Numbered from the stretch's first letter, positions 30,936 to 57,081 are shown. The stretch: 64,000 nucleotides of DNA from Candidatus Allofournierella pullicola (GCA_019114225.1 DXFW01000024.1:1-64000), one strand, 5' to 3'. The notes: generated by a model from the sequence alone, not told the origin. Translations and numbers: made by a program.

Positions 30936-30950
30936 AGCTTTTGCCCTCTG

Positions 30951-33400: not shown

Positions 33401-33425
33401 AGATCCTTCCTCCTTTTTTGTTTGT

Positions 33426-33719: not shown

Positions 33720-33756
33720 AAAAAGCACCTCCTTTCTTTTGGGGCCTCTGCCCGAT

Positions 33757-34209: not shown

Positions 34210-34236
34210 GTGTATCCTGTCCTTTCCTGTGCGATA

Positions 34237-38493: not shown

Positions 38494-38541
38494 TGCAACC
38501 CCCTTGCTTTCTTTGCTCCGGCTGCGCCCCGGCGGGACGCC

Positions 38542-39987: not shown

Positions 39988-39990
39988 CGT

Positions 39991-40935
39991 TTATTCTCCA
40001 CCCACTTCAAAATCAAACCTCTCGATGTACCGTTCAAAATGGCTGGAACGGGTGTTCACGGCAACGCCCCACATGGAGGAGATGTCATCGGCTGCAGCCC
40101 CCTGAGGAACAAAAATGCCGCTGGCCCTGTTTTCAAACTCGCAGCAGGGTTCGAAGCAAACGCCGTCCTCGCTGTAGTAGAGATACTGATGGCCGGTGGG
40201 GTCATGCCAGTTTCCCCTGTAAATATACCCCTCATGGGCCTTGTGCTTGAGCCCGCTGAGCAAAAGCAGCCCGCCTTTGTACGGCCAAAGGGAAAACGCA
40301 TGACCGCGGATGACCGGGCTGTGCGGATCGCGGCGGTAGGGGCCTTCGATGGACGGGGCACGGGCAAACCCCAGCTGCGTCATGTCGGCGTCATGCTCAC
40401 GGCTGTTGCTGCCTTTGTAGTAGATCCTCCACTCCCCGTTCCAGAACAGGGCCGTGATATCGTCCACCCCAAAGTCATCCCACTCGCCGGGTGCTCCCGG
40501 ACCGAACGCCGGGCCGCCGCTCTTGCGCACAAACGGGCCGTCCGGGGTGTCCGCCACCGCCCAGCTGCAGCTGCGGGGCTGAGGCGCTTCGTCACTGTAA
40601 TTCTCGCCCACCCCGCTGTACCACATGTAGTATTTTCCCTCGGCAAAGATCACGTTGGCGGTGAGCACACCGCCTGCGTCCCAACTGCCCGGTTCGCCCG
40701 GCAGCAGCGCGTCGAAAGGCTCGTCCCAGTTCTCGCCGTCTGCCGAGGTGACGCACATGATCTTGCAGCCGGTATAATGGCCATAAGGCAGATCGTGCAC
40801 GTGCTGGGTATACCACAGATAATATTTCCCGTTGTAGAAGAGGATGTTTGAGGGGTCATGGTTGTTGTCGCTCGGGAGCCCCTGTGTGGGATGTGCCGCG
40901 CGGCGCACCCGTCCGAGTTCCTTCGGTATGTTCAT
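39991..40935 (-). CDS. Five-bladed beta-propeller glycosidase-like protein (GH43/GH32-related)
   Basis: A 314-aa protein without a signal peptide. Blade-like repeats such as NNHDPSNILFYNGKYYLWYT, FAEGKYYMWYSG and FGVDDITALFWNGEWRIYYK show a five-bladed propeller of the GH43/GH62/GH32/GH117 kind. Possible catalytic acids are Asp27 (HDPSN) and the aspartates of FGVDD. I cannot place it in one family. Between a phosphorylase and ABC permeases it probably removes a terminal sugar from an imported oligosaccharide in the cytosol. Confidence 0.75.
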   Translation of the reverse strand: MNIPKELGRVRRAAHPTQGLPSDNNHDPSNILFYNGKYYLWYTQHVHDLPYGHYTGCKIMCVTSADGENWDEPFDALLPGEPGSWDAGGVLTANVIFAEGKYYMWYSGVGENYSDEAPQPRSCSWAVADTPDGPFVRKSGGPAFGPGAPGEWDDFGVDDITALFWNGEWRIYYKGSNSREHDADMTQLGFARAPSIEGPYRRDPHSPVIRGHAFSLWPYKGGLLLLSGLKHKAHEGYIYRGNWHDPTGHQYLYYSEDGVCFEPCCEFENRASGIFVPQGAAADDISSMWGVAVNTRSSHFERYIERFDFEVGGE

Positions 40936-40969
40936 CGATGTTTCCTCCCGTCGGCCTTTGGCCTGTGTA

Positions 40970-41818
40970 TCATTCCTTGCCGGAGCCTTCCACGATTCCT
41001 TTTACCAGCTGCTTGTTGAACACCGCATACATCACCAGGATGGGCAATGCGCTGAGGGTGACCGCCGCCAGCAGAATGCCATAGCCGCCGTTCATGGAAA
41101 CGTCGCCTATGCTGCGCAGCATGGCCGTCACCGTGAGGTTCTCTTTGCGGTTCATAATGATGATGGGCCACAAAAAATCGTTCCAGGTGTTCATAAAAGT
41201 GAGGATCGCCAGCGAAAAGATCCCCGGCGCCAGCATGGGGAACGCGATCCGGAACAAAATGCGCGCTTCCGAAGCGCCCTCGATCCGGGCAGCTTCCATG
41301 GTCTCGGTCGGCACGCCGTTCGAGGCAAACTGCCGCATCATAAATACGCCGAACGCCGGCGTCAGCCCCGGCAAGATCAGTGACCACAGCTTGTCTGCGC
41401 CGCCAATGCTCCGGAACAGCATGTAGGTGGGGACCAGCCGGGTCTCCAGCGGCAACATCAGCGTGGCAAGGACCAGGATGAACAGGATGTTTTTGCCGGG
41501 GAAACGGTACTTTGCAAAGGTGAACCCGCTGAGGGTGCAGAAAAAGCACGCTCCCGCCGTGGTGACCACGGACACGATAATGCTGTTCATCATCGCCTTG
41601 TCAAAGGGCCAGCTGGCAAAAAGCTGGCGGTACTTATCCAGGCTGAACCCGTTCTGGGGCAGCAGCTTGGGCGTCAGGGTAAAGATCTCATAGTCCTCTT
41701 TGAAACTGCCGAAAAACATCAGCACAAACGGAAAGCAGGAGATCACAATGATGACGAGCAGCAGCACCAGGGAGAGCAGTTTGACCAGGTTTGCGCGAAG
41801 TTTGTAGTTCTTGTTCAC
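40970..41818 (-). CDS. Sugar ABC transporter permease (MalG-like)
   Basis: A 282-aa inner-membrane protein with six hydrophobic segments and the EAA loop METMEAARIEGASEARILFR. It is paired with the permease 3 bp upstream. The start is GTG after GGAGGGG. No ATPase is encoded in the operon. Confidence 0.93.
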   Translation of the reverse strand: MNKNYKLRANLVKLLSLVLLLVIIVISCFPFVLMFFGSFKEDYEIFTLTPKLLPQNGFSLDKYRQLFASWPFDKAMMNSIIVSVVTTAGACFFCTLSGFTFAKYRFPGKNILFILVLATLMLPLETRLVPTYMLFRSIGGADKLWSLILPGLTPAFGVFMMRQFASNGVPTETMEAARIEGASEARILFRIAFPMLAPGIFSLAILTFMNTWNDFLWPIIIMNRKENLTVTAMLRSIGDVSMNGGYGILLAAVTLSALPILVMYAVFNKQLVKGIVEGSGKE

Positions 41819-41821
41819 CGC

Positions 41822-42745
41822 TCACCCCTCCATGTCTTTGTAGTAATGTTTGGCCAGCAGCCCGCTGAACGCCAGCAGCAGCACGAAGAGAATAAAGCTC
41901 AGTGCCGCGGAGTAGCCCATCTTGCCGTACTCATACGCGTTTTGGTACAGATAGTACACCAGGGTGGTGGAAGAATTGATGGGGCCGCCCTGCGTGAGCA
42001 CCATCACATCGCTGACGTTTTGGAAGATCCAGATGGTGGAGATGAGCGAAACGAAGAATATCTCCGGCATCATCAGCGGCACAGTGATGGAGAAAAATTT
42101 GCGCACCGGGCCCACGCCGTCCAACATGGCCGCCTCATGCACCGACTGAGGGATCTTTTGCATCCCCGCCAGCATCACCAGGGCAAAATAGCCGGTCATA
42201 CGCCAGATGTTCATCATGGCCACCGACACTTTGGACAGCGCAGTGGTATCCAGCCAGCCGATGGGGTCGATACCGAACAGGTTCCCCAGCAGCACGTTCA
42301 CCAGGCCGCCCTCTGTGGTGAGCACGATACGGAAAACAATGGCCACGATGGCCACTGCCGTAATGTAAGGCAGAAGCACAATGCTCTGATACACTTTGCG
42401 CCCCAGGATCCGCTTGGAATTGAGCAGGACGGCGAACAGCAGCGCCAGGATCGTGCGCGCCGGCACGATCAGTGCCCACAAAACCACCGTGTTCCACAGC
42501 GAGGAATAGAACTTCGGGTCACGGAATGCTTTCACATAATTGGAGAACCCGACAAAGTCCATTCGAGCCAGTCCGTCGTAGTTGGTCAGGCTCACATAAA
42601 AGCCGTAACAGGCGGGATACAGGCACAGAAAAACGAACAGGATAAAGAACGGCGCCAGCCACACATAGCAGTGCTTGTTTCGCTTGATCTCCGTCCAAAT
42701 GCCGGCCCGGCTTCGAACGCCGGACCGCTCAGATCTCTTATTCAA
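41822..42745 (-). CDS. Sugar ABC transporter permease (MalF-like)
   Basis: A 307-aa inner-membrane protein with six hydrophobic segments and the EAA loop VHEAAMLDGVGPVRKFFSIT. The start is TTG, eight bases after AAGGAGG, a clear case of a rare start fixed by its ribosome site. A stem-loop separates it from the binding-protein gene upstream. Confidence 0.93.
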   Translation of the reverse strand: MNKRSERSGVRSRAGIWTEIKRNKHCYVWLAPFFILFVFLCLYPACYGFYVSLTNYDGLARMDFVGFSNYVKAFRDPKFYSSLWNTVVLWALIVPARTILALLFAVLLNSKRILGRKVYQSIVLLPYITAVAIVAIVFRIVLTTEGGLVNVLLGNLFGIDPIGWLDTTALSKVSVAMMNIWRMTGYFALVMLAGMQKIPQSVHEAAMLDGVGPVRKFFSITVPLMMPEIFFVSLISTIWIFQNVSDVMVLTQGGPINSSTTLVYYLYQNAYEYGKMGYSAALSFILFVLLLAFSGLLAKHYYKDMEG

Positions 42746-42770
42746 GGGCGATCCCTCCTTGCTTCGATCC

Positions 42771-42814
42771 CGGGAAAAGAGAGGGCGGCAGTCAGCTCTC
42801 TGCCTGCCGCCCTC
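42771..42814 (-). terminator. Terminator-like stem-loop between binding-protein and permease genes
   Basis: On the minus strand GAGGGCGGCAG pairs with CTGCCGCCCTC, then TCTTTTC. It probably lowers permease expression relative to the binding protein. Confidence 0.6.
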
Positions 42815-42825
42815 CGGGAGACGAC

Positions 42826-44196
42826 TCAGATAAGTTCAATGCGGGCGCGCATTTCTGCCGCCGCGGTTTCGGGCGTGTAGGCGTCGTTCAGGAACATCTC
42901 GCCCAGCACTTCCGCGATCACGGTTTTGATCTCGGCCGTGCGGACATCCACATAAGGCAGAACGATGGTGTCGGCCTTGTCCAGCAGGTCCTGCGCCAGA
43001 AGCGCCACAGTCTTTTCACCGCCGAAGGGAGCCGATTCAGCCACGCCTTCGCCCTGGGCCAGAGCTTCCAGGCCGGGCAGGTAGCCGGTGCCGAAACGGG
43101 CCATCAGGCCTTCTTCGTTGATGTTTGCGCACTTCTGGGCGGCTTCCACCGTCTGAGTGAGGTAAGCCACCACCATGCGGGCAGCATTGGGGTATTTGGT
43201 GTTGGCGTTGATGGCCCAGAATTCGGTGTTGTTCAGGTAAGTGTCCGGGCCTTCCTCGGAGAATTTCATCGCAGGGGCGATCCGCAGGGTGCCGTAGCCG
43301 CCCTGGCCGTTGGGATCGGCGTTGGTCTCATAGTAGGCAACATGAGCGGCTGCGCCGGGGAACGCCGCGATCTTGCCGGCATTGAACGCGGTCCAGTACT
43401 CGTCGCTGTTGCTCTGGTCGCTCTTGTGCCAGATACCGGCGTCATAGCACTTCTCCAGCAACGCGATCGCTTCTTCCGCCTTGTCCAGGGAGATATTGCC
43501 CTCCTCGTCCAGCACTTCGCCGCCGAGCATGTACACGTAGTTCATAAACAGGCTGACACAGTCGGGGTCGGAGGGGTCCCAGGCGCCGGCGTAGTAGCCC
43601 GCTTCCTTCAGGGTCAGCGCCTGATCGAAATACTCGTCAAACGTCGTGGGCGCGCTCAGGCCCAGCTCATCGTACACATCGCCGCGGTACATGAAGATGA
43701 ACTGATTGGTCACCTGGTTGGGCAGGCCGTAAACGCCGCCGTTGTACTGCACGGGCGTGAGCACATCCAGAGTATTCTCGCTGTCGTAAATGCTGCTCAG
43801 CTCCATCAGATAGCCCGCCTCCACGAACTGGCGGACAAACTCGTCGTGAACGATCAGCACGTCGGGCACCGAGTCGCCCTGGCTCATGGCGATCTTCATC
43901 TTTGTGGGATACTCTTCATAGGAATACTTTTCGAAGTTGATCTTGATCCCGGTCTCTTCCATGAAATCCTTCAGCACGTATTCCGCCACAGAGGTCAGGT
44001 GCGCGCCGCCCATAATGGTCAGTTCCGCGCCCTCCTCGGGGGTCATGTCATCCCAGTGCAGCAGCTCCTGCGTCTCTCCCGTGCCGGAAGGCGCAGGGGC
44101 AGAACTGCCCCCGGTGCTGGCTGCGGGAGCGCCGCAGCCTGCCAGACACCCGATCATCATCAAAGCGGATAGCAACATTGCAACATACTTTTTCAT
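42826..44196 (-). CDS. Sugar ABC transporter substrate-binding lipoprotein
   Basis: A 456-aa family 1 extracellular binding protein with a signal peptide and lipobox CLAGC near residue 21, then an Ala/Ser/Gly linker. The substrate cannot be read from sequence; the operon (GH13_18 phosphorylase, ROK and PfkB kinases, aldolase) favours sucrose or a fructose-containing oligosaccharide. Its ATG overlaps the stop of the PfkB gene as ATGA. Confidence 0.94.
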   Translation of the reverse strand: MKKYVAMLLSALMMIGCLAGCGAPAASTGGSSAPAPSGTGETQELLHWDDMTPEEGAELTIMGGAHLTSVAEYVLKDFMEETGIKINFEKYSYEEYPTKMKIAMSQGDSVPDVLIVHDEFVRQFVEAGYLMELSSIYDSENTLDVLTPVQYNGGVYGLPNQVTNQFIFMYRGDVYDELGLSAPTTFDEYFDQALTLKEAGYYAGAWDPSDPDCVSLFMNYVYMLGGEVLDEEGNISLDKAEEAIALLEKCYDAGIWHKSDQSNSDEYWTAFNAGKIAAFPGAAAHVAYYETNADPNGQGGYGTLRIAPAMKFSEEGPDTYLNNTEFWAINANTKYPNAARMVVAYLTQTVEAAQKCANINEEGLMARFGTGYLPGLEALAQGEGVAESAPFGGEKTVALLAQDLLDKADTIVLPYVDVRTAEIKTVIAEVLGEMFLNDAYTPETAAAEMRARIELI

Positions 44197-45161
44197 AACG
44201 GTCCTCCTTTGGTTTCGATACTGTATTGTTTTGGATCAGAAAGCATGATCTGACTCAACAAACGACGAACATCATCCGGCGACACGCACGCCACCGCATC
44301 CGACATGGAGTTGGCCACTCCGCAGGCCATACCCAGCGCAAAAGCCTGGCGTGGGGGCATTCCCCTGGAAAGGCCCACGCAAAACCCGGCCACGCAGGAA
44401 TCACCGCTGCCGATGGTGGACATGACCGGCACGTCCGGCACCTCCGCCAGGCAGCACTCCGTTCCGCTGACCAGCAGCCCACCCTGTGCGCCCATGGAGA
44501 CCATGATCCACTCGAAGCGCCCGGGCAGCACTTTGCGTGCCATCCGGCACAGCGCTTCGGCGTCGGTGGTCGGCGCCTCGCCGCACAGTTCGGCCAGCTC
44601 GTTCTGATTGGGCTTGCAAAGATAGTACCGGCCCTCGGCGGCATTTCGCAGCGTGGCGCCGTTGGCGTCCAAAATGCACATTGCGCCGGCCTTTTCGCAC
44701 ATTGCGCCGATCCGCACATAAATGTCTTCAGGCGCGCCCGGAATGGAGATACCGGAACACACCACGATGTCCCCTTTTTCCAGGTCCTCTTCCAGCCGGC
44801 AGAGCAGCAGCTCCGCCTGTGCCGGCACCACGCTGGGCCCCATTTCCAAAATCTCGGTCTCCAGATTTTGGCTGCGGTCGATCACATTGATGGTGGTGCG
44901 GGTCTCTCCGGCCACCTCCAGAAGGCAGACACTGCTGCAGCAGCGGGCCATCTCCGCCCGCACCCGCCCGCCTGCCGTTCCTCCGACGAATCCATAGACC
45001 GCCGCCGGTTCCCCCAATTGGGCGCAGACTTTGGCCACGTTCACACCTTTTCCGCCCACGCACTCGCTGGGTTCATTGTTCTTGTACTGGCGGCCTGCGG
45101 TGAACTGGTCGATGTAATAGGTCCGGTCGATCACCGGATTCAGGCAAACCGCTCGGATCAT
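44193..45161 (-). CDS. 1-phosphofructokinase family hexose kinase (FruK/LacC type)
   Basis: A 322-aa PfkB-fold kinase. It begins with the FruK/LacC signature MIRAVCLNPVIDRTYYID, has GGKGVNVAKV near residue 37, and the catalytic anion hole TIGSGDSCVAGF near 250. Family members phosphorylate fructose-1-phosphate, tagatose-6-phosphate or fructose-6-phosphate to a bisphosphate. The class II aldolase gene lies 21 bp upstream, so it likely supplies that enzyme's substrate. GGAGG precedes the ATG. Confidence 0.92.
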   Translation of the reverse strand: MIRAVCLNPVIDRTYYIDQFTAGRQYKNNEPSECVGGKGVNVAKVCAQLGEPAAVYGFVGGTAGGRVRAEMARCCSSVCLLEVAGETRTTINVIDRSQNLETEILEMGPSVVPAQAELLLCRLEEDLEKGDIVVCSGISIPGAPEDIYVRIGAMCEKAGAMCILDANGATLRNAAEGRYYLCKPNQNELAELCGEAPTTDAEALCRMARKVLPGRFEWIMVSMGAQGGLLVSGTECCLAEVPDVPVMSTIGSGDSCVAGFCVGLSRGMPPRQAFALGMACGVANSMSDAVACVSPDDVRRLLSQIMLSDPKQYSIETKGGPL

Positions 45162-45182
45162 CGCTCCATCCTCCTCCCCGGC

Positions 45183-46115
45183 TCACAGCCAGTTTTTCCC
45201 TGCGCAGCCGCAGACGTTCCGCATTTTGTGGCGCACCTCGGCGGAAAACGCCTCTCTGGCAGGCCGCAGATACACCCGCGGGTCATACTTGTCCGGCGTG
45301 TCCCGCAGCACCCGTCGCACCTCCCGCGTGAAGCAGAGGAAGTTGTCCACATCCATATTGGCCTTGCAGACTCCGAACTGCCCGGTGCGGGCGATGTCCG
45401 TTTCGCTGCAATTGCGCATGAAGGGCACTTTTCCGCCCACATGGTTCACGTCTTCGATCAGTTCCGCCGGCAGGCTGGCCGCTCCGTGCAGCACAAGCGG
45501 ATAACCGGGCAGCGCTGCGTGGATCCGGGCCAGCACGTCAAAGTCCAGCGGGAGCGGGCCGTCCGCGATCACCCCTCCGTGGGACGTGCCCACCGACACT
45601 GCCAGGCTGTCGCAGCCGGTTTCCTCCACAAAGCGGGCCGCCATTGCGGGGTCGGTAAATGCCGCATGCTCGGCAAACACCTCATCCTCAAAGCCCGGCA
45701 GCCGGCCGAGTTCCGCCTCTATGCCGGCCCCCCGTTCGTGGGCCCAGTCCGCCAGTGCGCGGGTCAGCCGGATGTTCTCTTCACAGGGCAGGTGGGAGCC
45801 ATCGAACATTGCCCCGGAAAAGCCCCAGCTGATGGCTTCCATCGCGGCTTCGGGCGTGGGGCAGTGGTCATGATTCAGGGCCACCGGCACCGGCGTTTCC
45901 TCCGCCATCCGTTTCATCAGTGAAACAAAAGCCGGAACGCTGGGCACATATTTGCGTGCTCCCATGCTCATTTGCAGGATCACCGGTGCGTTTTCCTGCC
46001 GGGCCGCGTCCAGCACGGCGCCCAGCGATTCCAGATTGCACACGTTGAATGCACCGACGATGTACCGTTCCTGCGCCGCATGCTCCAACAGCTGCTTTAC
46101 CGTCTTTAATGCCAT
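45183..46115 (-). CDS. Class II fructose/tagatose-bisphosphate aldolase
   Basis: A 310-aa zinc aldolase that splits a ketohexose bisphosphate into DHAP and glyceraldehyde-3-phosphate. Zinc ligands are visible in NHDHC (near residue 81), with further sites in EAELGRLPG and LHGAASLP. Class II aldolases of this size include Fba, GatY and KbaY, and sequence alone does not decide. It is the first gene of the eight-gene operon, directly behind two copies of a LacI-type operator. Confidence 0.93.
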   Translation of the reverse strand: MALKTVKQLLEHAAQERYIVGAFNVCNLESLGAVLDAARQENAPVILQMSMGARKYVPSVPAFVSLMKRMAEETPVPVALNHDHCPTPEAAMEAISWGFSGAMFDGSHLPCEENIRLTRALADWAHERGAGIEAELGRLPGFEDEVFAEHAAFTDPAMAARFVEETGCDSLAVSVGTSHGGVIADGPLPLDFDVLARIHAALPGYPLVLHGAASLPAELIEDVNHVGGKVPFMRNCSETDIARTGQFGVCKANMDVDNFLCFTREVRRVLRDTPDKYDPRVYLRPAREAFSAEVRHKMRNVCGCAGKNWL

Positions 46116-46174
46116 TTTATCTCCCTCCGAACATCAAAGGCCGCCTGTGCCTGTTTTTTCCAACTTTGCCGCAG

Positions 46175-46194
46175 AATAGAAAACGTTTTCTATT
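46175..46194. promoter_or_regulatory. LacI-type operator 1 of the aldolase operon
   Basis: AATAGAAAACGTTTTCTATT is a perfect 20-bp palindrome with the central CG of LacI-family sites. It lies 60 bp upstream of the aldolase start. Confidence 0.85.
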
Positions 46195-46208
46195 CAGACG
46201 CACATATC

Positions 46209-46222
46209 AGAAAACGTTTTCT
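46209..46222. promoter_or_regulatory. LacI-type operator 2 of the aldolase operon
   Basis: AGAAAACGTTTTCT repeats the core of operator 1, with centres 31 bp apart (about three turns). This suits cooperative binding of the LacI-type protein encoded next to it. Confidence 0.85.
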
Positions 46223-46273
46223 ATCAGGATACGCCTGCACGGCGTCCGTGTCGGGGATGTCCCCCTCCGGCAG

Positions 46274-47278
46274 TTATTCGTGCATGTTCCGCACCGAGTC
46301 GCCCCGCAGCAGCGGCGCGTCCAGCTGAACTCTGGTGCACCCGCAATCGGCGGATTGGAGCAGCTGGCGAAGCAGCAGCCCTGCCTGGCGGCCCATTTCG
46401 CAGCTGTCCTGATACATACAGGTGACGCGCAGACCAAAATACGAATCCACCATTCCAAAGGAGACCAGGGAAATATCCCGGCCGATCTGCAGCCCCAATT
46501 CCGCACATGCCTTCAGCGTACCCGAAAGCACGATGTTGTTGGCGCAGAAAAGCGCTGTAGGGTGGTCCGGGCGGGCCAGAAGGCCGCGGACCCATTTGTA
46601 TGCCGACTCGGCGTCAAAATTGGAGGGGCTGACCCACTCTTCTTCCACCGGGAGGCCGCTTTCTTCCATTGCCTGCACAAACCCGTGATACCGCTCCTGG
46701 CCGTTGCGGTTTTTCAGCGAGACGTTCACGATCCCGATCTCGGTGTGCCCCGCGTCGATGAGTTCCCGCGTAATGCGGCGGGAGGCTTCGTTGTTGTCCC
46801 ATCCCACCTGGTTCGTTTCCAGTCCGTCCAGCACACGGTCGATCTGGACCACCGGAACGCGAAGTTCCAGAAATCTTTGAATAGAATCGATCTTGCTGTC
46901 GCTGCTGGCGATCACGAGGGCGTCGATCCGTTTTTCCAGCAGAGATTCCAGCAGCTGGCGTTCTTTTTCTGCTTTTCCGTCGCTTCCGGCCACCACAAGG
47001 TTATAGCCGTCGGCGGCGATCTCCCGCTCCAGCCCTTTTGCCGCTTCCATAAAAAACAGGTTGGAAAGGTCCGGCACCACCAGCGCGATCAGATTGGTGC
47101 GGTTGCTGCGCAGGCTGCGGGCCACGGCGTTGGGCCGGTAACCCAGCTCCCGAACCGCTTTGCGCACCCGCTGCTGCACCTCAGCGCTGACAGGATAGTT
47201 CCCGTTCAGGGCGCGGGAGACCGTTGTGATGGAAACACCCGCGGCTTTTGCAATGTCTTTGATCGTCGCTTGCTTCAC
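46274..47278 (-). CDS. LacI-family regulator of the sucrose phosphorylase operon
   Basis: A 334-aa repressor. Helix-turn-helix and hinge: TIKDIAKAAGVSITTVSRAL at residues 5-24, then YRPNAVARSL. The periplasmic-binding-protein-like sensor domain follows. Its gene lies directly upstream of, and on the same strand as, the aldolase operon, separated by two perfect operators. A two-mismatch copy of the same operator lies just downstream of its own promoter, so it is probably autorepressed. The start is GTG 47278 with GGGGGA upstream. Confidence 0.95.
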   Translation of the reverse strand: MKQATIKDIAKAAGVSITTVSRALNGNYPVSAEVQQRVRKAVRELGYRPNAVARSLRSNRTNLIALVVPDLSNLFFMEAAKGLEREIAADGYNLVVAGSDGKAEKERQLLESLLEKRIDALVIASSDSKIDSIQRFLELRVPVVQIDRVLDGLETNQVGWDNNEASRRITRELIDAGHTEIGIVNVSLKNRNGQERYHGFVQAMEESGLPVEEEWVSPSNFDAESAYKWVRGLLARPDHPTALFCANNIVLSGTLKACAELGLQIGRDISLVSFGMVDSYFGLRVTCMYQDSCEMGRQAGLLLRQLLQSADCGCTRVQLDAPLLRGDSVRNMHE

Positions 47279-47465: not shown

Positions 47466-47479
47466 TGGAAACAGTTCCA
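47466..47479. promoter_or_regulatory. Putative operator of the second LacI protein (upstream site)
   Basis: TGGAAACAGTTCCA is a palindrome (TGGAA-N4-TTCCA) eight bases before the -35 box of the second lacI gene. A near-identical site overlaps the start of the operon it would control. Confidence 0.55.
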
Positions 47480-47574: not shown

Positions 47575-48561
47575 ATGGCGAGGATTCAGGACGTTGCGGA
47601 AAAAGCGGGAGTCGGCGTGGCCACAGTGTCCCGCATGCTGAACGGTTCGGGATATGTTTCTGCGGCTTCTCGGGCAAAGATCCAGGCCGCCATGGACGAG
47701 TTGAACTACACGCCGAACGAGCTGGCGCGCAACCTTTATCACAAGCGTACGGGTATCATTGCGGTGGTGGTGCCCACCATTGCCCATCCGTTTTATGCGG
47801 AATTTGTGAACTGCGCGGAAATGGAGATCCACCGCCGGGGCTTCAAGACCATGCTCTGCAATGCATCCAGCGGATATGCGGAGGAGCTGGAATATCTGGA
47901 CATGCTCAACCGCCACATCGTGGACGGAGTCATCAGCGGCACCCACACGATGGACACCGAAGCTTACAATAAAATCAAAAAGCCCATTGTGTCCCTGGAC
48001 CGGTATCTGGGCGAGGACATCCCGCTGGTGGCGGTGGACCACGTGAAGGGCGGCCGCCTTGCGGCGCAGGCATTGCTGCAAAGCGGCTGCAGGCGTGTGC
48101 TTCATTTCCGGGGCGAAACCACCGTGGAGGCTCCCTATCACGACCGCCATTTTGAATTTTCCCGTATCATGCGGGAAAACGGCGTGGAGGTCTATGATTA
48201 TGAACTGGCCTGGAACCGCTTTGACGTGGAATACCACCAGCAGGTAGTGGACGATGTCTTTTCCTCCGGGCTGGAGTTTGACGGAGTGTTCGGCGTAGAT
48301 CAGCTGGCCGCCATCTGCATGAACGAGCTGCTGCGCCGGGGCCGGCGCATTCCGGAGGACGTGAAGCTCGTCGGCTACGACGGCACCTACATCTCCCGCC
48401 TCTCCCGGATCCCGATGACCACCGTGGTGCAGCCCATCGACGCTCTGGCGCGGGAATCGGTGCGCCTTATCCTGGACTGCATGGCCGGCAAACAAGCCAA
48501 GAACGAGCGGGTCATGCTGGATGTGAGCTTGCGGCAGGGCGAAACTACCCTTCCGGTATAA
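47575..48561 (+). CDS. LacI-family regulator of the GH172-GH32 operon
   Basis: A 328-aa repressor with helix-turn-helix MARIQDVAEKAGVGVATVSR at its start and hinge YTPNELARNL, then a sugar-binding sensor domain. ATG 47575 follows GGAAGGAAGGCGG; upstream in-frame codons lie in the promoter. It is divergent from the other lacI gene and lies just before the second sugar operon, whose promoter carries a matching palindrome. The two repressors differ and so probably answer to different sugars. Confidence 0.95.
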   Translation: MARIQDVAEKAGVGVATVSRMLNGSGYVSAASRAKIQAAMDELNYTPNELARNLYHKRTGIIAVVVPTIAHPFYAEFVNCAEMEIHRRGFKTMLCNASSGYAEELEYLDMLNRHIVDGVISGTHTMDTEAYNKIKKPIVSLDRYLGEDIPLVAVDHVKGGRLAAQALLQSGCRRVLHFRGETTVEAPYHDRHFEFSRIMRENGVEVYDYELAWNRFDVEYHQQVVDDVFSSGLEFDGVFGVDQLAAICMNELLRRGRRIPEDVKLVGYDGTYISRLSRIPMTTVVQPIDALARESVRLILDCMAGKQAKNERVMLDVSLRQGETTLPV

Positions 48562-48626: not shown

Positions 48627-48655
48627 TTGACATTTCGCACGATTTGTTTTATTTT
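48627..48655 (+). promoter_or_regulatory. Promoter of the ABC-GH172-GH32 operon
   Basis: TTGACA (48627-48632) and TATTTT (48650-48655), 17 bp apart. Confidence 0.7.
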
Positions 48656-48664: not shown

Positions 48665-48678
48665 TGGAAGCGGTTCCT
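48665..48678. promoter_or_regulatory. Putative LacI-type operator at the operon start
   Basis: TGGAAGCGGTTCCT has the central CG of LacI/CcpA sites and matches the site at 47466-47479 in 11 of 14 positions. It lies at the expected transcription start, so a bound repressor would block the promoter. It also fits a cre site. Confidence 0.6.
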
Positions 48679-48742
48679 CATTTTTTTAATCCAAAATGTG
48701 GAATGGGTTTCACATCAATACATTTTTACAGGAGGATACACC

Positions 48743-50065
48743 GTGAAAAAAGCATTATCGCTGGGCCTGGCCCTGAGCATGGCGCTCGGACTGATGGCCG
48801 GATGTGCAGGCTCTCCCAGCAGCTCCACCACATCCGCCGGAACATCCACATCGGCTTCTGCCGAAGAGACCGTCATCACCTTTGGCATTCATGTTGCCAA
48901 CCCCGAAAGCCAGGAAGCGGTCACCTGGCAGATCGTGCAAGCCTTCAACGAAGCCTATGCCGGCAAGTACAAGGTGGAGTTCCAGGCGGCCGATACCGAG
49001 ACTCACACCACGAACATGATGCTGCAGGCCACCGACGGCACCCTTCCCGAGATCTTCTGGATGGATGCCAGCCAGGCGCCCGAATATGCTGAATCCGGTT
49101 ATCTTCTGGACCTTTCGGATTTCCTGAGCCAGAACGAAGCCGTGGACACCGCCCTGGGCGGCATGGAAGACGCCTTCAACAACGGCTCCATGCAGTACGG
49201 CCTGCCCTATCAGTGCAACGTGCAGGGTTTCTTCTACAACAAGGACATTTTTGACGCGGCTCAGGTGGCTTATCCCACCGAGGACACCACCTACGACGAA
49301 TTCCTGACCATGATCGAGCAGCTGAAAGCAGCCGGCACCACCCCCATCGCCATCGGCAGCAAGAACAGCGCCTACGCCATGTGGGAGTTCAACGAGTTCC
49401 TGGCCCGCTACGGCTGGGAGGAAGACATCGACGCTTACAACGCCGGTGAGACCCCCTTCAACAACGAAAAGCTGGTCTCCTGCTTTGAAAAAGTGAAGGG
49501 CCTTGCCGACGCGGGCGCCTTCCCCGAGAACATGGCCACCATCGAATACTTTGACGCGAAGCAGCTGTTTGTGGACGGCAGCGCGGCGATGTTCGGCACC
49601 GGCCAGTGGGACTGCGCCGCTTTCGACGAGTCTCTGGGCGACAGCATCGGCTTCTGGTGGGGTCCCAAGTTCGAGGACTCTGACGCCGAGCAGGAGATCG
49701 CCATGAAGGTGCCTTCCGCTCCCATCGTGGTGAGCAGCAAGGTCGCGGATGACCCCGCTGTTCAGGAAGCGGTGTATGCCTTCCTTGCGTTCTATTACAG
49801 TGAGGACGCCACCGGCATTTCCTACGAAGGTTCCATCTTCCCCGCCACCAACTACTCCGGCGTTGCTGCCAGCGAGACTCAGTACGCCATGAACCAGATG
49901 ATCGAGGCCCTGGCCTCCGGCTGGGCGGTTCCCGAAGCGGCGCCCGACCAGACTCTCACCCCCTCTGTGCAGGAGGCGCTGTACGACGGCCTGTTTGGCG
50001 TTATGCAGGGTGTGTACACGCCCGAGCAGGCACTGGACAACATGGACGCGGCGCTGGCTTACTGA
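48743..50065 (+). CDS. Sugar ABC transporter substrate-binding lipoprotein
   Basis: A 440-aa family 1 binding protein with signal peptide and lipobox LMAGC near residue 21, then a Ser/Thr linker. The start is GTG 48743, seven bases after AGGAGG; an in-frame opening about 100 bases earlier lies across the promoter. Its operon encodes GH172 and GH32, so the ligand is likely a fructose disaccharide or dianhydride. It is followed by a terminator-like hairpin before the permease genes. Confidence 0.95.
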   Translation: MKKALSLGLALSMALGLMAGCAGSPSSSTTSAGTSTSASAEETVITFGIHVANPESQEAVTWQIVQAFNEAYAGKYKVEFQAADTETHTTNMMLQATDGTLPEIFWMDASQAPEYAESGYLLDLSDFLSQNEAVDTALGGMEDAFNNGSMQYGLPYQCNVQGFFYNKDIFDAAQVAYPTEDTTYDEFLTMIEQLKAAGTTPIAIGSKNSAYAMWEFNEFLARYGWEEDIDAYNAGETPFNNEKLVSCFEKVKGLADAGAFPENMATIEYFDAKQLFVDGSAAMFGTGQWDCAAFDESLGDSIGFWWGPKFEDSDAEQEIAMKVPSAPIVVSSKVADDPAVQEAVYAFLAFYYSEDATGISYEGSIFPATNYSGVAASETQYAMNQMIEALASGWAVPEAAPDQTLTPSVQEALYDGLFGVMQGVYTPEQALDNMDAALAY

Positions 50066-50097
50066 TCCTGTCCCCCACACGCTCCATTTGACCTGCA

Positions 50098-50131
50098 AGC
50101 GGGCGCCGGCCGACAGCCGGCGCCCGCTTTT
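50098..50131 (+). terminator. Intra-operon attenuator/terminator
   Basis: AGCGGGCGCCGGC and GCCGGCGCCCGCT form a perfect 13-bp stem with a five-base loop, followed by TTTT. Because co-directional permease genes follow at once, it probably allows partial readthrough and keeps the binding protein in excess. Confidence 0.75.
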
Positions 50132-50149
50132 ACCAAAGGAGGATTCGTT

Positions 50150-51022
50150 TTGCACTGGCTCAGCAAAAAAAGATATCTGGTGGGGATGACACTGCCCTCC
50201 CTTCTGGTCTACACGGTGTACATCATCCTGCCGATCGGCATTGCCGTGTACTACAGTCTGACGAAATATTCCGGCATCGGCAAACCCACCTTCGTGGGGT
50301 TCTTGAACTATGCCCGCATGCTTGAGGACAAGGTGTTCTGGACATCGCTCAAAAACACAATGATCATGTTTGTGCTTGCGTTTGCCCTGCTGCTCACCCT
50401 TTCCTTCCTGCTGGCACTGCTTCTGAACAGCCGGCTGAAGTTCGCGGATCTGTCCAAGTCACTGATCTTCTCGCCCGCCATCATCGCCCCCATCATCGTG
50501 GGCATTATCTGGGTGTACATCCTGGATCCCAACATCGGCGTCATCAACAATCTGCTGGACGCCATCGGCGCTTCGGCGCTCAAGCAAAAATGGATCGGCG
50601 GCGAGGTGCTGTCTCCCTACAGCATTGCGGTGATCTATTTCTGGCAGCAGCTGGGCTATCTCACCACCATTTTCATCGCCGGCCTGAAGATGATCCCGGA
50701 GGATGTTCTGGAGGCGGCCACCATCGACGGCACCACCTTCCCCCAGAAGGTGCGGTTCGTGATCCTGCCCATGATGAAGACCACCATCTCCACCGTGGCC
50801 GTGCTGATCATTACCGGGGTGTTCAAGATCTTCGAGATCGTGCAGCAGACCACCGGCGGCGGGCCGAACCATCTTTCCGAAACGCTGGTGACCTACAGCT
50901 ACGCACAGACGTTTGACAGCGGCAACTACGGATACGGCATGTCCCTTGCCACGTTCACCAGCCTGCTCTCCCTGCTGATCACGGCCATCTATTCCCTGCT
51001 CACACGAAATAAGGAGGACTGA
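50150..51022 (+). CDS. Sugar ABC transporter permease (MalF-like)
   Basis: A 290-aa inner-membrane protein with six hydrophobic segments and EAA loop VLEAATIDGTTFPQKVRFVI. The start is TTG 50150, seven bases after AAAGGAGG. It pairs with the permease starting 2 bp after its stop. Confidence 0.94.
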   Translation: MHWLSKKRYLVGMTLPSLLVYTVYIILPIGIAVYYSLTKYSGIGKPTFVGFLNYARMLEDKVFWTSLKNTMIMFVLAFALLLTLSFLLALLLNSRLKFADLSKSLIFSPAIIAPIIVGIIWVYILDPNIGVINNLLDAIGASALKQKWIGGEVLSPYSIAVIYFWQQLGYLTTIFIAGLKMIPEDVLEAATIDGTTFPQKVRFVILPMMKTTISTVAVLIITGVFKIFEIVQQTTGGGPNHLSETLVTYSYAQTFDSGNYGYGMSLATFTSLLSLLITAIYSLLTRNKED

Positions 51023-51024
51023 CC

Positions 51025-51855
51025 ATGACCAAAAAGCAGACAAGGCTGATTCTGTATCCGGTGATGATCCTCATCACCCTGGTGGTGGTGTTTCCTTTTT
51101 TGTGGATGCTGATGCTCTCCTTCAAATCCAGCGGAGAGATCCTGTCTGACCCGCTGGCGTTCCCCACCTCCCTCAATCTTGAAAACTTTGCAAACGCCCT
51201 GAACACGCTGAACTTTCCCCAGCTTTATGCCAACACGTTCCTGATCTGCGCCGCGTCGCTGATCTTTGAACTGGCCATCACCTTTTTGAGTTCCTTTGCA
51301 CTTGCCCGGCTGGAGTTTCCCGTCCCGAAGGTCCGCACACTGATCTACAGTTTCCTGATCCTGGGCCTTTCGGTGTCGCCCTTCATCCTGCTGTTCCCTG
51401 TGTATAAGATCAATGTGTTTTTCGGGCTGCGCGGCAAGCTGGCGCTGGTTTTGCCCTATGTGGCCACCTCCATCTCCTTCAACACCCTGCTGCTGGTGGG
51501 CTATCTGAAGGCTTTGCCGCCGGAAATAGACGAGGCGGCCATCATCGACGGCTGCAACGTGTGGGACCTGATGTTGCGGGTCACGCTGCCCATGGCAAAA
51601 CCGGTCATCGCCACCATTGTGATCTTCAACGTGCTGTATATCTGGAACGAATTCCCCTTTGCTTCGGTCATGCTGCGGGACGCAGCGGACTACACCCTCT
51701 CCATGGGCACCTCGTTCTTCAAAGGCACCTACACAGTGGACTACGGCGGCATTGTGGCCACCAGTGTGATGATCATCATCCCGGAACTGATCTTCTACGG
51801 CATATTCCAGAAAAACATCGTGGATGGCATGACGGCGGGCGCCGTCAAGGGCTGA
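51025..51855 (+). CDS. Sugar ABC transporter permease (MalG-like)
   Basis: A 276-aa inner-membrane protein with six hydrophobic segments and EAA-type loop IDEAAIIDGCNVWDLMLRVT, ending in VDGMTAGAVKG. AAGGAGG lies in the end of the preceding gene. The cognate ATPase is not encoded in this window. Confidence 0.94.
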   Translation: MTKKQTRLILYPVMILITLVVVFPFLWMLMLSFKSSGEILSDPLAFPTSLNLENFANALNTLNFPQLYANTFLICAASLIFELAITFLSSFALARLEFPVPKVRTLIYSFLILGLSVSPFILLFPVYKINVFFGLRGKLALVLPYVATSISFNTLLLVGYLKALPPEIDEAAIIDGCNVWDLMLRVTLPMAKPVIATIVIFNVLYIWNEFPFASVMLRDAADYTLSMGTSFFKGTYTVDYGGIVATSVMIIIPELIFYGIFQKNIVDGMTAGAVKG

Positions 51856-51887
51856 CACGTTCAAATGCATGAAAAGGAGTTTTGAGC

Positions 51888-53237
51888 ATGAACAATCAAA
51901 GCGGTATTTTCGGTGACCTGACCCATGTTGCCAAAGCGCGCAACGGCAGGCTTTCCAGCTGGGACCAGCGGGGAAAGAACCAGGACTACTGGCAGATCCC
52001 TGCCGGCGAGACCATCTGCCTGGGCGAAGTGGAGGGGCCCGGCTGCATTACTCATATCTGGATGACTTCTTCCTGCCGGCGGGTCAAATCCCCCAGCATT
52101 CTGGACCCCGTCCTGAACGCCAGCGCCGCCCCGGTAATGGAGATCCATCCGGCTCTCGGCGTCATTTGGGATGACTACGACCCCTTCTACTACCGCAAGG
52201 CCCTGATCCGGATCACCTGGGACGACCAGAGCAACCCCAGCGTTCTGGTTCCCTTTGGCGATTTCTTCTGCATTGGAAACTGCTACCCCGGCAACTTCAC
52301 TTCCCTGCCCTTCAACGTGTCGCTCAAGCCGGAAGAGGCCGGCCGCTACGGCGCGCCCTGCTCTGTGTCCTGCTACTTCCCCATGCCCTTCAACAAGAAG
52401 GCTAAAATCGAGATCGTCAACGAAAACGACGTTCCTTTCATCCTTTACTTCAACATCGACTACGAAATGTATCCCGAACCGCTGAGCGAGAACACCGCCT
52501 ATTTCCACGCCTGCTGGAACCGCGAGAACCCCTGCAAGGGCTGGGGCAACGACCTGCAGGTGAACTCTCCCGAAGTGAACAACGTCACCAATTTCAAGGG
52601 CGAGAACAACTATACCGTTCTGGACGTGGAAGGCTGCGGCCATTATGTGGGCTGCAACCTGACCGTCAAGCACTACCAGGGCAGCTGGTGGGGCGAGGGC
52701 AACGACATGTTCTTCATCGACGGCGAGGAATACCCCAGCCTGAACGGCACCGGCACCGAGGACTATTTCAATCACGCCTGGGGCATGCAGCGCAATGCGT
52801 ATCCCTTCTTCGGCACCATCGTTCACGAGGGTGACAGCGGTGATTTCCAGGTGTCCTACCGCTTCCACATCACCGACCCCGTCCGTTTTGAAAAGCACCT
52901 GCGTGTGACCATCGAGCATGGGCATGCCAATCAGCTTTCGGATGACTGGAGTTCCACCGCCTACTGGTATCAGCTGCTCCCCACCCAGAAAGAGCTCACG
53001 GTGCCGCCGGTGGAAGAGCGCCTTCCCAACGTGCCCCAGCTGCACACCCCCGCCGCCGCGCTGCCCGAGCTGACCGAAGAGATGAAAGCCGCCCGCGCCG
53101 CGTGGCAGGAGCGCTGGGAGACCTATTCTCCCGAGCGGCAGCAGCAGCTGCGTATCAAAGAGGACAAAGCGCGCCGTGAATCCCGTCTGAACACCGAGTT
53201 CGCCAAAAAGCTGCGGGATCAGTACGACAATCGTTGA
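51888..53237 (+). CDS. GH172 (DUF2961) family enzyme, probable difructose dianhydride/alpha-fructofuranoside hydrolase
   Basis: A 449-aa cytosolic protein of the DUF2961 family, now GH172. Family stretches seen include GEVEGPGCITHIW near residue 45, DDYDPFYYRKALIRI, and NGTGTEDYFNHAWG near 285, which contains acidic residues likely to be catalytic. Characterised GH172 enzymes are a difructose dianhydride I synthase/hydrolase and arabinan-active enzymes. Here a GH32 gene follows 18 bp later and a fructokinase after that, which favours the fructose-active role. ATG 51888 is eight bases after AAGGAG; a TTG two codons earlier is rejected. Confidence 0.9.
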   Translation: MNNQSGIFGDLTHVAKARNGRLSSWDQRGKNQDYWQIPAGETICLGEVEGPGCITHIWMTSSCRRVKSPSILDPVLNASAAPVMEIHPALGVIWDDYDPFYYRKALIRITWDDQSNPSVLVPFGDFFCIGNCYPGNFTSLPFNVSLKPEEAGRYGAPCSVSCYFPMPFNKKAKIEIVNENDVPFILYFNIDYEMYPEPLSENTAYFHACWNRENPCKGWGNDLQVNSPEVNNVTNFKGENNYTVLDVEGCGHYVGCNLTVKHYQGSWWGEGNDMFFIDGEEYPSLNGTGTEDYFNHAWGMQRNAYPFFGTIVHEGDSGDFQVSYRFHITDPVRFEKHLRVTIEHGHANQLSDDWSSTAYWYQLLPTQKELTVPPVEERLPNVPQLHTPAAALPELTEEMKAARAAWQERWETYSPERQQQLRIKEDKARRESRLNTEFAKKLRDQYDNR

Positions 53238-53255
53238 ATGCATTGGAGAGAGAGC

Positions 53256-54743
53256 ATGTCAGAACAACGTATGCAACAGCAGATCGAGGCTGCGTGTGCG
53301 CACATTGCCCAGCACGCGGAGAGCGTTCGGCACAGCCGCTACCGCCAGAGGTACCACTTCATGCCCCAGTGCGGCTGGCTGAACGACCCCAACGGCCTGA
53401 TCTATTTCAAAGGCAAGTATCATTTCTTCTATCAATACAATCCCTATTCCGGTTTTTGGGACCGCATGTTTTGGGGTCATGCGGTGAGCGAGGACCTGCT
53501 CCACTGGGATTACCTTCCTGTGGCGCTGGCCCCCAGCGAAGAATACGACGATCACCCCAAGGGCGGCTGTTTTTCCGGCAGTGCCATCGTGATCGGCGAC
53601 AAGCTGTGGGTGATGTACACCGGCACCTGCAACAACGGCAACGGGTTTGAGCAGTCCCAGTGCGTTGCCTGGAGCGAGGACGGCGTCCAGTTCCACAAAT
53701 ACGAGGGCAACCCCGTGCTGACGGCTCCCGAGGGCGTGCGTCCCGACTGCTTCCGCGATCCGAAGGTGTGGGAGCACGACGGTCTTTACTACATGGTCTG
53801 CGGCGCCAGCCGTGACGGCAAAGCCCAGGCGCTTGTATACCGCTCGGCCGATTTTCTTCACTGGGAATTTTTCAATGTCCTGGCCGAAAGCCGCGGCGAG
53901 TGGGGGTACATGTGGGAGTGCCCGGATTTCTTCCCTCTGGGCGACAAATATGTGCTGATGTTTTCTCCCATGGGCGGCGGTGAGCGCACCAGCGTCTACC
54001 TTGTGGGCGATTTCGATTATGAGACCGGAAAGTTCCAGTGGTCCACCAGCGGCGAAAACGATTGGGGATTCGACTATTACGCGCCTCAATCCTTCCTCGC
54101 GCCGGACGGCCGCCGTATCATGGTAGCCTGGGCAAACTCCTGGGACTGGATGCCGACCTGGAAAGACTGGGGGCCCACCTACCGGGAGGGCTGGAACGGC
54201 TTTTTCGATCTGCCCCGGGAAGTGCGCCTTTTGCCGGACAATTCGCTTCAGTTCCTGCCGGTAAAAGAGCTGCGCGCGCTGCGCCGCGATCCTCAGTTCA
54301 AAGACGTGCTGGAACTGCAGCCAGATCAGGAGCAGTCCGTGACTGCCGGCGACGGTGTGGCTTTTGAACTGCGGTTCACTCTGGATCTGGAGCACACCGA
54401 CGCGGAGCAGGTGGAGCTTTCTCTGCGCTGCGGCGAAGGCCGCCGCACGGTCTGCACGCTGGATCTGAAACACAGCATGATGTATGTGGACCGGAACAAC
54501 TCCGACGGCTGGAGCCGCGGTGTGTCCAAAAGTCCCCTTTTTGTCCGTGACAAGACGCTTTTGGACGTGCACGTTTTTTCCGACCAGAGCTCCCTTGAGA
54601 TCTTCACCAGCGACTGCACCACCAACCATTCCCTGAACGTGTTCGCCTCTGACGCGCAAAACGGCATTCTGCTGTGCGCCCGGGGCGGCGGCGCCCGTCT
54701 GCTTTCGCTGGAAGGCTACGGTCTGGAGCGGACCTTTTGCTGA
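53256..54743 (+). CDS. GH32 beta-fructofuranosidase
   Basis: A 495-aa enzyme that releases fructose from sucrose, inulobiose or fructo-oligosaccharides. The propeller holds the nucleophile Asp44 in WLNDPNG, FRDPKV with the transition-state aspartate, and the acid/base glutamate in WECPDFF. A C-terminal beta-sandwich follows. There is no signal peptide, so it works on imported sugar. An ATG at 53238 directly follows the GH172 stop, but ATG 53256 has GGAGAG at good spacing. It probably acts after GH172 in the same pathway. Confidence 0.95.
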   Translation: MSEQRMQQQIEAACAHIAQHAESVRHSRYRQRYHFMPQCGWLNDPNGLIYFKGKYHFFYQYNPYSGFWDRMFWGHAVSEDLLHWDYLPVALAPSEEYDDHPKGGCFSGSAIVIGDKLWVMYTGTCNNGNGFEQSQCVAWSEDGVQFHKYEGNPVLTAPEGVRPDCFRDPKVWEHDGLYYMVCGASRDGKAQALVYRSADFLHWEFFNVLAESRGEWGYMWECPDFFPLGDKYVLMFSPMGGGERTSVYLVGDFDYETGKFQWSTSGENDWGFDYYAPQSFLAPDGRRIMVAWANSWDWMPTWKDWGPTYREGWNGFFDLPREVRLLPDNSLQFLPVKELRALRRDPQFKDVLELQPDQEQSVTAGDGVAFELRFTLDLEHTDAEQVELSLRCGEGRRTVCTLDLKHSMMYVDRNNSDGWSRGVSKSPLFVRDKTLLDVHVFSDQSSLEIFTSDCTTNHSLNVFASDAQNGILLCARGGGARLLSLEGYGLERTFC

Positions 54744-54781
54744 GACCGCTGCCGGGCGACATGAGAACGGAGGAAAGATCC

Positions 54782-55753
54782 ATGAAGCAGTTTGACGTTG
54801 TGGCCATGGGTGAACTTTTGATCGATTTCACCGAAAACGGGACCAGCTCCCAAGGCAATCCCCTTCTTGAGGCGAACCCCGGCGGAGCGCCCTGCAACGT
54901 GCTGGCCATGCTTGCAAAACTCGGCAAAAGCACAGCCTTTATCGGCAAGGTGGGCAGCGACCAGTTTGGCAGCCAGCTGAAGGACACGCTGCGCGCCGTT
55001 GGGATCGACATGCGCGGCCTTGTCACCGATCCCGTCGTTCACACCACACTGGCGTTTGTGCACACTTTGCCTGACGGGGACCGCGACTTTTCCTTTTACC
55101 GCGCCCCCGGCGCCGACATGATGTTGACGGCGCAGGAACTGGCGCCCGGGCTGGTGGAACAGGCAAAGATATTCCATTTCGGAACTCTGTCCATGACCCA
55201 CGACGGCGTTCGCGCCGCGACCCTTTGCGCATTGGACCGGGCCCGGGAAGCCGGAGTCAAAGTCTCCTTCGACCCGAATCTCCGCCCGCCCCTGTGGTCT
55301 TCCATGGAACTTGCCAAGGAATGTATGGGGTTGGGGATGTCCCGCTGCGACTATCTGAAGATCGCGGACAACGAAGTGCGCTTCTTCACCGGCACAGAGG
55401 ACTGCGAAGAAGGCGTCCGCCTCATCCGCGAACGGTATCCCAACATCTCGGTGCTTTTCCTGACGCTGGGGCCGGACGGCAGCCGTGCTTACTGCCGCGG
55501 CCTGCGTGCCGAGCAGCCCGGTTTTGTGGTGGGTACCGTCGACACCTGCGGCGCGGGTGACACCTTCTGCGGCTGTGCGCTGGGGTATCTGCTGGACCAT
55601 GACCCCGACCAGCTCACCCAGAGCCAGCTGGAAGAACTTTTGCGCTTTGCCAATGCGGCGGCCGCGCTGGTCACCACCAAAAAAGGCGCCATCCGCTCCA
55701 TGCCGGAGCGGTGGCAGATCGACGCTCTGCTCAACGCCCCTGCGGGGCATTAA
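54782..55753 (+). CDS. PfkB-family fructokinase
   Basis: A 323-aa ribokinase-fold kinase that makes fructose-6-phosphate. It has GGAPCNVLAMLAKLG near residue 37 and the catalytic DTCGAGDTFCG near 258, the usual fructokinase (ScrK-type) pattern. ATG 54782 follows GGAGGAAAG; longer in-frame openings overlap the GH32 end. It is the last gene of the operon and phosphorylates the fructose freed by GH32. Confidence 0.92.
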   Translation: MKQFDVVAMGELLIDFTENGTSSQGNPLLEANPGGAPCNVLAMLAKLGKSTAFIGKVGSDQFGSQLKDTLRAVGIDMRGLVTDPVVHTTLAFVHTLPDGDRDFSFYRAPGADMMLTAQELAPGLVEQAKIFHFGTLSMTHDGVRAATLCALDRAREAGVKVSFDPNLRPPLWSSMELAKECMGLGMSRCDYLKIADNEVRFFTGTEDCEEGVRLIRERYPNISVLFLTLGPDGSRAYCRGLRAEQPGFVVGTVDTCGAGDTFCGCALGYLLDHDPDQLTQSQLEELLRFANAAAALVTTKKGAIRSMPERWQIDALLNAPAGH

Positions 55754-55815: not shown

Positions 55816-57081
55816 TCAGAACAGCTGCCGCCCGGCCACATACTTGGCAAGAGGCAGGCCGTCGGAGAGCCAGACCACTCGCTCCAGACGTTCGGTGAGG
55901 GTGCACTGGCGGGTGGTGGGCAGGGCGCTGTCGTCCATGACGATGGCGTCGAACTCATAGCCCGGCTCGAAGCTGCCCACTTTGCCGAAGAACTCGCCGC
56001 CGCCTTTGGTGGCAAGATACAGCGCTTCGGGCAGGGTGAGCGCGGGCAGGCTGTCATCCACCAGGCGCCAGCGCAGCTTGGAGCACTGGATGGCGTCGGT
56101 CATGGCGCGGAAGATGGAAAGGTGCGCGCCGCCGGCCACGTCGCTGCCCAGACCCGCCTTTTGGCCTTCCCGCAGCCAGGTGCGCACGGGCGCAATGCCG
56201 GAGGAAACGTTCATGTTGGACTGTGGGCAGTGTGCCAAAAACACGCCCCGCTCCTTCATCAGGGCCCGCTCCTCCTCGCCGCTCCAGATACAGTGGGCCA
56301 TCACGGTGGGACACTCGCCGCCAAACAGGCCCGGCTGACTGTAGGCTTCGCCGTAAAACCGGGTGGAGGGGCGCAGCTGTTTGACCCACTCGATCTCGGA
56401 GAGGTTCTCCGACAGGTGCGACTGCATTGCCGCGCCGAACTGCCGCTGCAGCCCGCCCAGGCCGTTCATCAGCGTCTCGGAGCAGCTGGGGATGAACCGG
56501 GGGGTGATGACCGGACGCACACCGGAAAAGCCGGCGCTTTCTTCCAGCCAGCGGCGGGTCTCAGCCAGGGAACCTTCGGTGGTCTCCCGCAGATAGTCCG
56601 GGCAGTTGGAATCCATGTTCAGCTTGCCCACAAAGCCCCGCAGGCCCGCCTTTTCCAGCAGGTCCATCAGCAGCAGGGTGGCGGGCCGGTGCACCGTGGC
56701 AAAGATACTCGCGCGGGTGGTGGCGCTGCGGGTCAGTTCATCCGCGAACACCCGGTAGGCCGCCGCCGCATAGGCCGGATCGGCAAAACGGGCTTCCTCC
56801 GGGAAGGCGTTTTCTTCCAGCCAGTCCAGCAATTCCATATCCATGCCCAGGCCCCGGTAGGCATACTGACTGGCGTGAACGTGCAGGTCCACCAGGCCGG
56901 GCAGGATGAGCCGGTCGCCATGTTCATGGACGGGGATGTTTGCAAACCGCTCGGGCAGCGTCTCAAAAATGCCCGCCACAAGCCCGTTTTCGCAGACGAG
57001 ATACTGCCGGGGCCGCACTTCCAGCTTGCCGCAGACAGGCGTAAAAATAATATTGCCCTTCAGGGCGAAGGTTTGTTCCAT
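55816..57081 (-). CDS. guaD: Guanine deaminase-like amidohydrolase
   Basis: A 421-aa zinc amidohydrolase that turns guanine into xanthine and ammonia. Metal ligands appear as LVDLHVHASQYAYRG (near residue 65), HLSEN, MAHC and GSDVAGG. LNMDSNCPDYL is typical of GuaD. It supplies nitrogen and feeds purine salvage. It has its own promoter and stands alone. Confidence 0.92.
   Translation of the reverse strand: MEQTFALKGNIIFTPVCGKLEVRPRQYLVCENGLVAGIFETLPERFANIPVHEHGDRLILPGLVDLHVHASQYAYRGLGMDMELLDWLEENAFPEEARFADPAYAAAAYRVFADELTRSATTRASIFATVHRPATLLLMDLLEKAGLRGFVGKLNMDSNCPDYLRETTEGSLAETRRWLEESAGFSGVRPVITPRFIPSCSETLMNGLGGLQRQFGAAMQSHLSENLSEIEWVKQLRPSTRFYGEAYSQPGLFGGECPTVMAHCIWSGEEERALMKERGVFLAHCPQSNMNVSSGIAPVRTWLREGQKAGLGSDVAGGAHLSIFRAMTDAIQCSKLRWRLVDDSLPALTLPEALYLATKGGGEFFGKVGSFEPGYEFDAIVMDDSALPTTRQCTLTERLERVVWLSDGLPLAKYVAGRQLF

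Follow-up and report, generated by a model that had tools for sequence, protein, structure and literature searches.

The founding member of GH172 is αFFase1 of Bifidobacterium dentium (PDB ID: 7v1v), a difructose dianhydride I (DFA I) synthase/hydrolase in which E291 and E270 form the catalytic pair (Kashima et al. 2021, PMC8605356). Its reaction is reversible, with an equilibrium of about 9:1 in favour of DFA I (PMC8605356). The same work described a LacI-GH32-GH172-ABC gene set in B. dentium, mentioned clostridial homologues and stated the growth of B. dentium on DFA I as unpublished data. Therefore, neither the enzyme nor its gene company is new. A further described system is the Blautia DFA III cluster (GH91 DFA-IIIase, GH32, ABC, sugar kinase; PMC11538131), in which a cyclic difructose is likewise imported and opened to inulobiose, from which GH32 yields fructose. 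However, its ring opener is an unrelated GH91 instead of a GH172 enzyme, and it handles another ring isomer.

Here, we analysed a stretch of 64,000 nucleotides from Candidatus Allofournierella pullicola (GCA_019114225.1 DXFW01000024.1:1-64000), referred to as the window. An initial annotation had read one of its operons as a likely locus for the utilisation of difructose dianhydrides or inulobiose, and this reading is supported by the similarity of its GH172 protein to αFFase1, the conserved pocket residues and a gene company as in B. dentium. The main substrate of the operon is very probably DFA I or a close α-fructoside, with diheterolevulosan II (DHL II) and other α-fructosides being equally possible as cargo. 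The operator motif, the empty-site comparison, the GH32 and GH91 content of the genome and the GH91 genes beside related cassettes, all described below, are additions to the cited work.

Organization of the operon

The operon spans positions 48743-55753 on the plus strand, from the start of the solute-binding lipoprotein gene to the stop codon of the fructokinase gene. The lipoprotein (SBP, CUT1 type; 48743-50065; PF13416/PF01547) has a GTG start at 48743, a GGAGG ribosome site and the lipobox LMAGC. It is followed by ABC permease 1 (50150-51022; PF00528), ABC permease 2 (51025-51855; PF00528), a GH172/DUF2961 protein (51888-53237; PF11175, E 5e-84) that is a DFA I synthase/hydrolase by similarity, a GH32 β-fructofuranosidase without signal peptide (53256-54743; PF00251, E 1e-97, and PF08244) and a PfkB-family fructokinase (54782-55753; PF00294). 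The intergenic gaps are 84, 2, 32, 18 and 38 bases, and a Shine-Dalgarno-like sequence precedes each gene. These six genes indeed form one plus-strand operon, with every gene named in the initial annotation in its place. The LacI gene (47575-48561, plus strand; PF00356, PF13377), behind which the operon had been said to lie, is located outside this span, 181 bases upstream of the SBP gene. No ABC ATPase gene is present within the operon; a single MsmK-like ATPase (47% identity) is encoded elsewhere in the genome.

The B. dentium-type set of LacI, ABC importer, GH172 and GH32 is complete at this locus. In comparison with the αFFase1 operon of B. dentium JCM 1195 (BBDE_2039-2043), these components are shared, the GH172 proteins agree in their pocket residues and both hydrolases are cytosolic. 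In contrast, the LacI gene is upstream in the window and downstream in the Bifidobacterium loci compared, the window adds a PfkB fructokinase gene, and the two organisms belong to different phyla.

GH172 protein and its active site

In a phmmer search against the PDB, the GH172 protein matched αFFase1 (7v1v) with 911.6 bits, while the next solved relatives, including the exo-α-D-arabinofuranosidase 8ic8, reached only 105-182 bits. The alignment with 7v1v is gap-free, places residues 3-447 on 3-447 with 369 of 445 positions identical (82.9%), and spans both jelly rolls as well as the C-terminal helix, so that the similarity is full-length. The catalytic residues E270 and E291 are conserved, as are W267, Y187, D292 and W298 of the -1 subsite, E85 and K147 of the +1 subsite, and N31, D33 and N272. 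Across the 56 rows of the DFA clade compared, the tested residues are constant, except for N272D in seven actinobacteria; E85 and K147 are present in all of them. In 15 other GH172 proteins (from 14 acidobacterial loci and locus L002), the alignment shows a gap at both 85 and 147. Mutation of E85 or K147 in αFFase1 left 0.5-5% of the activity on inulobiose, compared with 94-100% on pNP-α-D-arabinofuranoside (PMC8605356). Combined, the sequence comparison supports the window protein as a near-orthologue of αFFase1, the characterised enzyme, with all of the tested substrate residues retained. It has no secretion signal, and no second GH172 gene was found in the genome (97.6% complete).

Predicted pathway

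The GH32 protein carries the WLNDPNG/RDP/EC signature (NDPNG-43, RDP-167, EC-221) and belongs to the broad ScrB subfamily, which suggests that it would act on sucrose or kestose too. It is the sole clear GH32 of the genome. The other match, at 40567-40860 (minus strand), is weak and was rejected as a second GH32, since it falls within a GH43/GH32/GH117-like protein of the neighbouring operon. For the PfkB protein, the best NCBIfam match is PRK09434 fructokinase, which scores below the curated cut-off. The nearest solved relatives of the SBP bind xylan and chitin oligosaccharides, and the similarity is low; we infer that its ligand would be DFA I or its kin.

Based on these assignments, the operon very probably serves the LacI-controlled scavenging of DFA I and close kin such as DHL II and inulobiose. 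The SBP and the two permeases, powered by a shared ATPase encoded elsewhere, would bring in the cyclic or linear disaccharide. In the cytosol, GH172 would open DFA I to inulobiose in a retaining reaction with E291 as the nucleophile and E270 as the acid/base. The cytosolic GH32 would then release two fructoses from inulobiose, and PfkB would convert fructose into a fructose phosphate for glycolysis. As the equilibrium lies towards DFA I, net ring opening would need the removal of inulobiose by GH32, which presumably pulls the GH172 reaction forward. When the inducer is missing, LacI would occupy the paired operators just 3′ of the -10 box and block transcription.

Related cassettes

The order LacI-SBP-permease-permease-GH172-GH32 was found in the majority of some 30 clostridial loci, indicating that the arrangement is not due to chance. 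The cassette occurs with conserved order in Lachnospiraceae, Oscillospiraceae, Anaerovoracaceae and Treponema, while Bifidobacterium and Actinomyces keep the gene set with LacI downstream. Clostridial cassettes of Faecalicatena, Extibacter, Claveliimonas, Faecalimonas and Enterocloster (L003-L023, L033, L034, L055) share both the gene order and the paired operator with the window; however, L004 and L007 carry an additional GH91 gene which the window lacks. A fructokinase gene follows GH32 in L004, L006, L012, L016, L021, L033 and L055. At the same position, permease 1 is 72-80% identical in most relatives, the SBP at most 71%, and LacI 59-63% in most Lachnospiraceae relatives.

The GH172 (100/95) and SBP (92) trees pair the window with L021 (Anaerovoracaceae), the GH32 tree pairs it with Bifidobacterium/Actinomyces (SH-aLRT 96), and the LacI tree groups it with Lachnospiraceae. 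Since the gene trees disagree and are quick single-gene trees with long branches, no one donor is named. The identity of GH172 to the window protein is 73-83% in Bifidobacterium and only 54% in Streptomyces. A transfer between phyla is not claimed, as a single actinobacterial clade is compatible with the data (AU p 0.50). Carriage by a virus or plasmid was likewise considered and rejected: the peptide patterns had no match among viral contigs, and the best plasmid matches had at most 57% identity.

Predicted LacI operators

A candidate sigma-70-like promoter, TTGACA-17-TATTTT, is located at 48627-48655 on the plus strand (consensus scan, 10/12). Three LacI operators are predicted around it. 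O1 (TGGAAACAGTTCCA, 47466-47479), a perfect TGGAA-N4-TTCCA, lies between two divergent LacI genes, 5′ of the plus-strand one; O2 (TGGAAGCGGTTCCT, 48665-48678) is directly past the -10 box, and O3 (TGGAATGGGTTTCA, 48699-48712) is 34 bp past O2. A position just downstream of the -10 box is where a repressor site is expected. A position-specific operator matrix built from other loci, with the window excluded, ranked the sites at 48699, 48665 and 47466, in this order, as the top three on both strands of the 64 kb. The operator core is TGGAA-cggg-TTCCA, and the consensus with flanks is ATGTGGAACGGGTTCCACAA.

Within 400 bases 5′ of the SBP match, TGGAA-N4-TTCCA with at most one mismatch occurs 50 times in 25 of 35 relatives, compared with a mean of 0.36 and a maximum of 2 in shuffled sequences. 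Operator pairs are spaced by 34-90 bp in 21 loci of the relatives; the spacing of 34 bp between O2 and O3 is shared by the window and L021, with 45-70 bp in most relatives. Genome-wide, the bare perfect palindrome is not enriched (3 occurrences compared with 4 in the reversed control). Therefore, the support for the operators comes from the matrix and the conserved placement, which together suggest that LacI would bind O1-O3.

Accessory stretch of sugar genes

A 33-kb stretch (22655-55805), which includes the operon, is missing from three sister species (G058, G148 and G150). In these genomes, the sequence corresponding to about 22.6 kb of the window joins that of about 55.81 kb within 73-440 bases on one contig, giving a clean empty site. 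In a fourth sister species, this site is occupied by different sugar genes (FBA-like, LacI-like), and GH172 is absent from these four other species of the genus. In the wider family, one of 147 other sampled genomes had a GH172 above threshold, which was only 47% identical, and the remaining 146 had no match. The GC content of the stretch is 0.596, compared with 0.63-0.64 in its flanks, and it showed no recognisable integrase or flanking repeat. The operon was probably acquired together with this stretch of sugar genes. The junction adjoins a guanine deaminase gene (55816-57081), and this site is likely a hotspot for sugar operons.

In addition to the DFA operon, the stretch contains a divergent sucrose phosphorylase operon, PTS genes and a further ABC operon. 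The divergent operon (37495-47278, minus strand) encodes a LacI, a class II aldolase, a 1-phosphofructokinase-type PfkB, an SBP, two permeases, the GH43/GH32/GH117-like protein, a sucrose phosphorylase (38542-39987, minus strand; TIGR03852, 667 bits) and a ROK kinase. The presence of the aldolase and the 1-phosphofructokinase in one operon suggests that its sugar is processed as a 1-phosphate. The GH43/GH32/GH117-like protein (314 aa; 39991-40935, minus strand) adjoins the sucrose phosphorylase, is distantly similar to 3,6-anhydro-α-L-galactosidases (80 bits) and has no good fit among curated families. The PTS group (29331-36297, minus strand) comprises a PtsI-like enzyme (534 aa), a galactitol-type EIIC-GAT, an EIIA and a PRD/Mga-type regulator with an EIIA domain. 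In an ABC operon downstream of a gene for a 722-aa FAD-dependent oxidoreductase, an SBP gene (26023-27426) is broken by an in-frame TAG at 26539-26541 into two ORFs of one frame, which may reflect a pseudogene, readthrough or a sequencing error.

Source of DFA I

GH91 inulin fructotransferases produce DFA I from inulin. In the genome of the window (97.6% complete), no GH91 match was obtained at E values up to 10, while the same query detected the L004 and L007 genomes as positive controls. Consequently, the known route from inulin to DFA I is not available to this genome, and a complete pathway of GH91, GH172 and GH32 within it was ruled out. Lacking GH91 as well as any other clear GH32, it harbours an operon that looks like that of a scavenger.

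In relatives, GH91 genes stand beside the cassette in L004 (3371-4552), L007 (4548-5729) and eight actinobacterial loci (PDB relatives 8hsn and 2inu). This gene neighbourhood provides a link between the cassette and DFA I that does not depend on the study of B. dentium. The GH91 genes start with MA(D/T)TxYDVTT or similar directly after the ribosome site and show no recognisable signal peptide. This suggests that DFA I may arise inside the cell there and that a longer fructan may be taken up, although GH91 of S. davawensis was called extracellular (PMC8605356), contrary to such an intracellular origin. An origin of DFA I from processed food (caramel) is a published hypothesis (PMC8605356). For the gut-type bacterium of the window, caramel is a plausible origin, and fructan-derived DFA I from GH91-bearing neighbours would be an equally good one.

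Alternative roles of the operon

Among the other explanations, the one which survives best is an operon of general use for sucrose or short fructo-oligosaccharides of the inulin type, with GH32 as the main enzyme and GH172 merely recovering DFA I formed in side reactions. The broad ScrB character of the only clear GH32 would suit such a role, as would the cassette-adjoining GH91 without signal peptide in relatives, which suggests that fructan oligosaccharides enter the cell there. However, no other protein of the cassette is as well conserved as GH172 (84-87% compared with 60-67% for GH32 in Lachnospiraceae), which keeps its position with or without GH91 and fructokinase in the locus. Moreover, sucrose is already served by the sucrose phosphorylase operon next door with its own importer. 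We thus regard this general role as unlikely.

It is much less probable still that GH172 makes DFA I, hoarding fructose in ring form, instead of using it. Such synthesis would be in line with the 9:1 equilibrium, but the operon also encodes an importer, an inulobiose-removing GH32 and a fructokinase, all of which would draw the flux towards degradation, and no exporter is present. Finally, action on α-D-arabinofuranosides such as mycobacterial arabinan fragments can practically be dismissed. αFFase1 does cleave pNP-α-D-arabinofuranoside (PMC8605356) and other GH172 enzymes are D-arabinofuranosidases (PMC10115798; PDB ID: 8ic8), but the neighbours of GH172 are fructose enzymes, and E85 and K147, required for inulobiose and not for the arabinoside, are kept in the window and its whole clade, while the remaining GH172 proteins of the comparison lack them. 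The retention of these two residues makes activity on arabinofuranosides only, a case named in the initial annotation, unlikely.

Implications for the lineage

Returning to the utilisation of DFA I, a wider picture can tentatively be drawn, which we consider possible rather than probable. The cassette could be a spreading accessory module with a two-operator LacI switch, for which inulin, via GH91-bearing neighbours, would be the main natural source of DFA I and caramel a secondary one. In that case, genomes such as the present one, which have GH172 and GH32 without GH91, would be those of bacteria cross-feeding on DFA I. In GH91-bearing relatives, DFA I would partly be an intracellular intermediate, as their GH91 shows no recognisable signal peptide.

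The empty-site comparison either dates the cassette after the split from the sister species or implies repeated loss, and the cassette is an accessory trait in this lineage. Its presence here widens the known range of a recently described pathway for cyclic fructose that is formed by heat or derived from fructans. While the LacI operator motif offers a prediction of the regulon, the motif and the empty site together make dietary dianhydride feeders testable through strain comparison.
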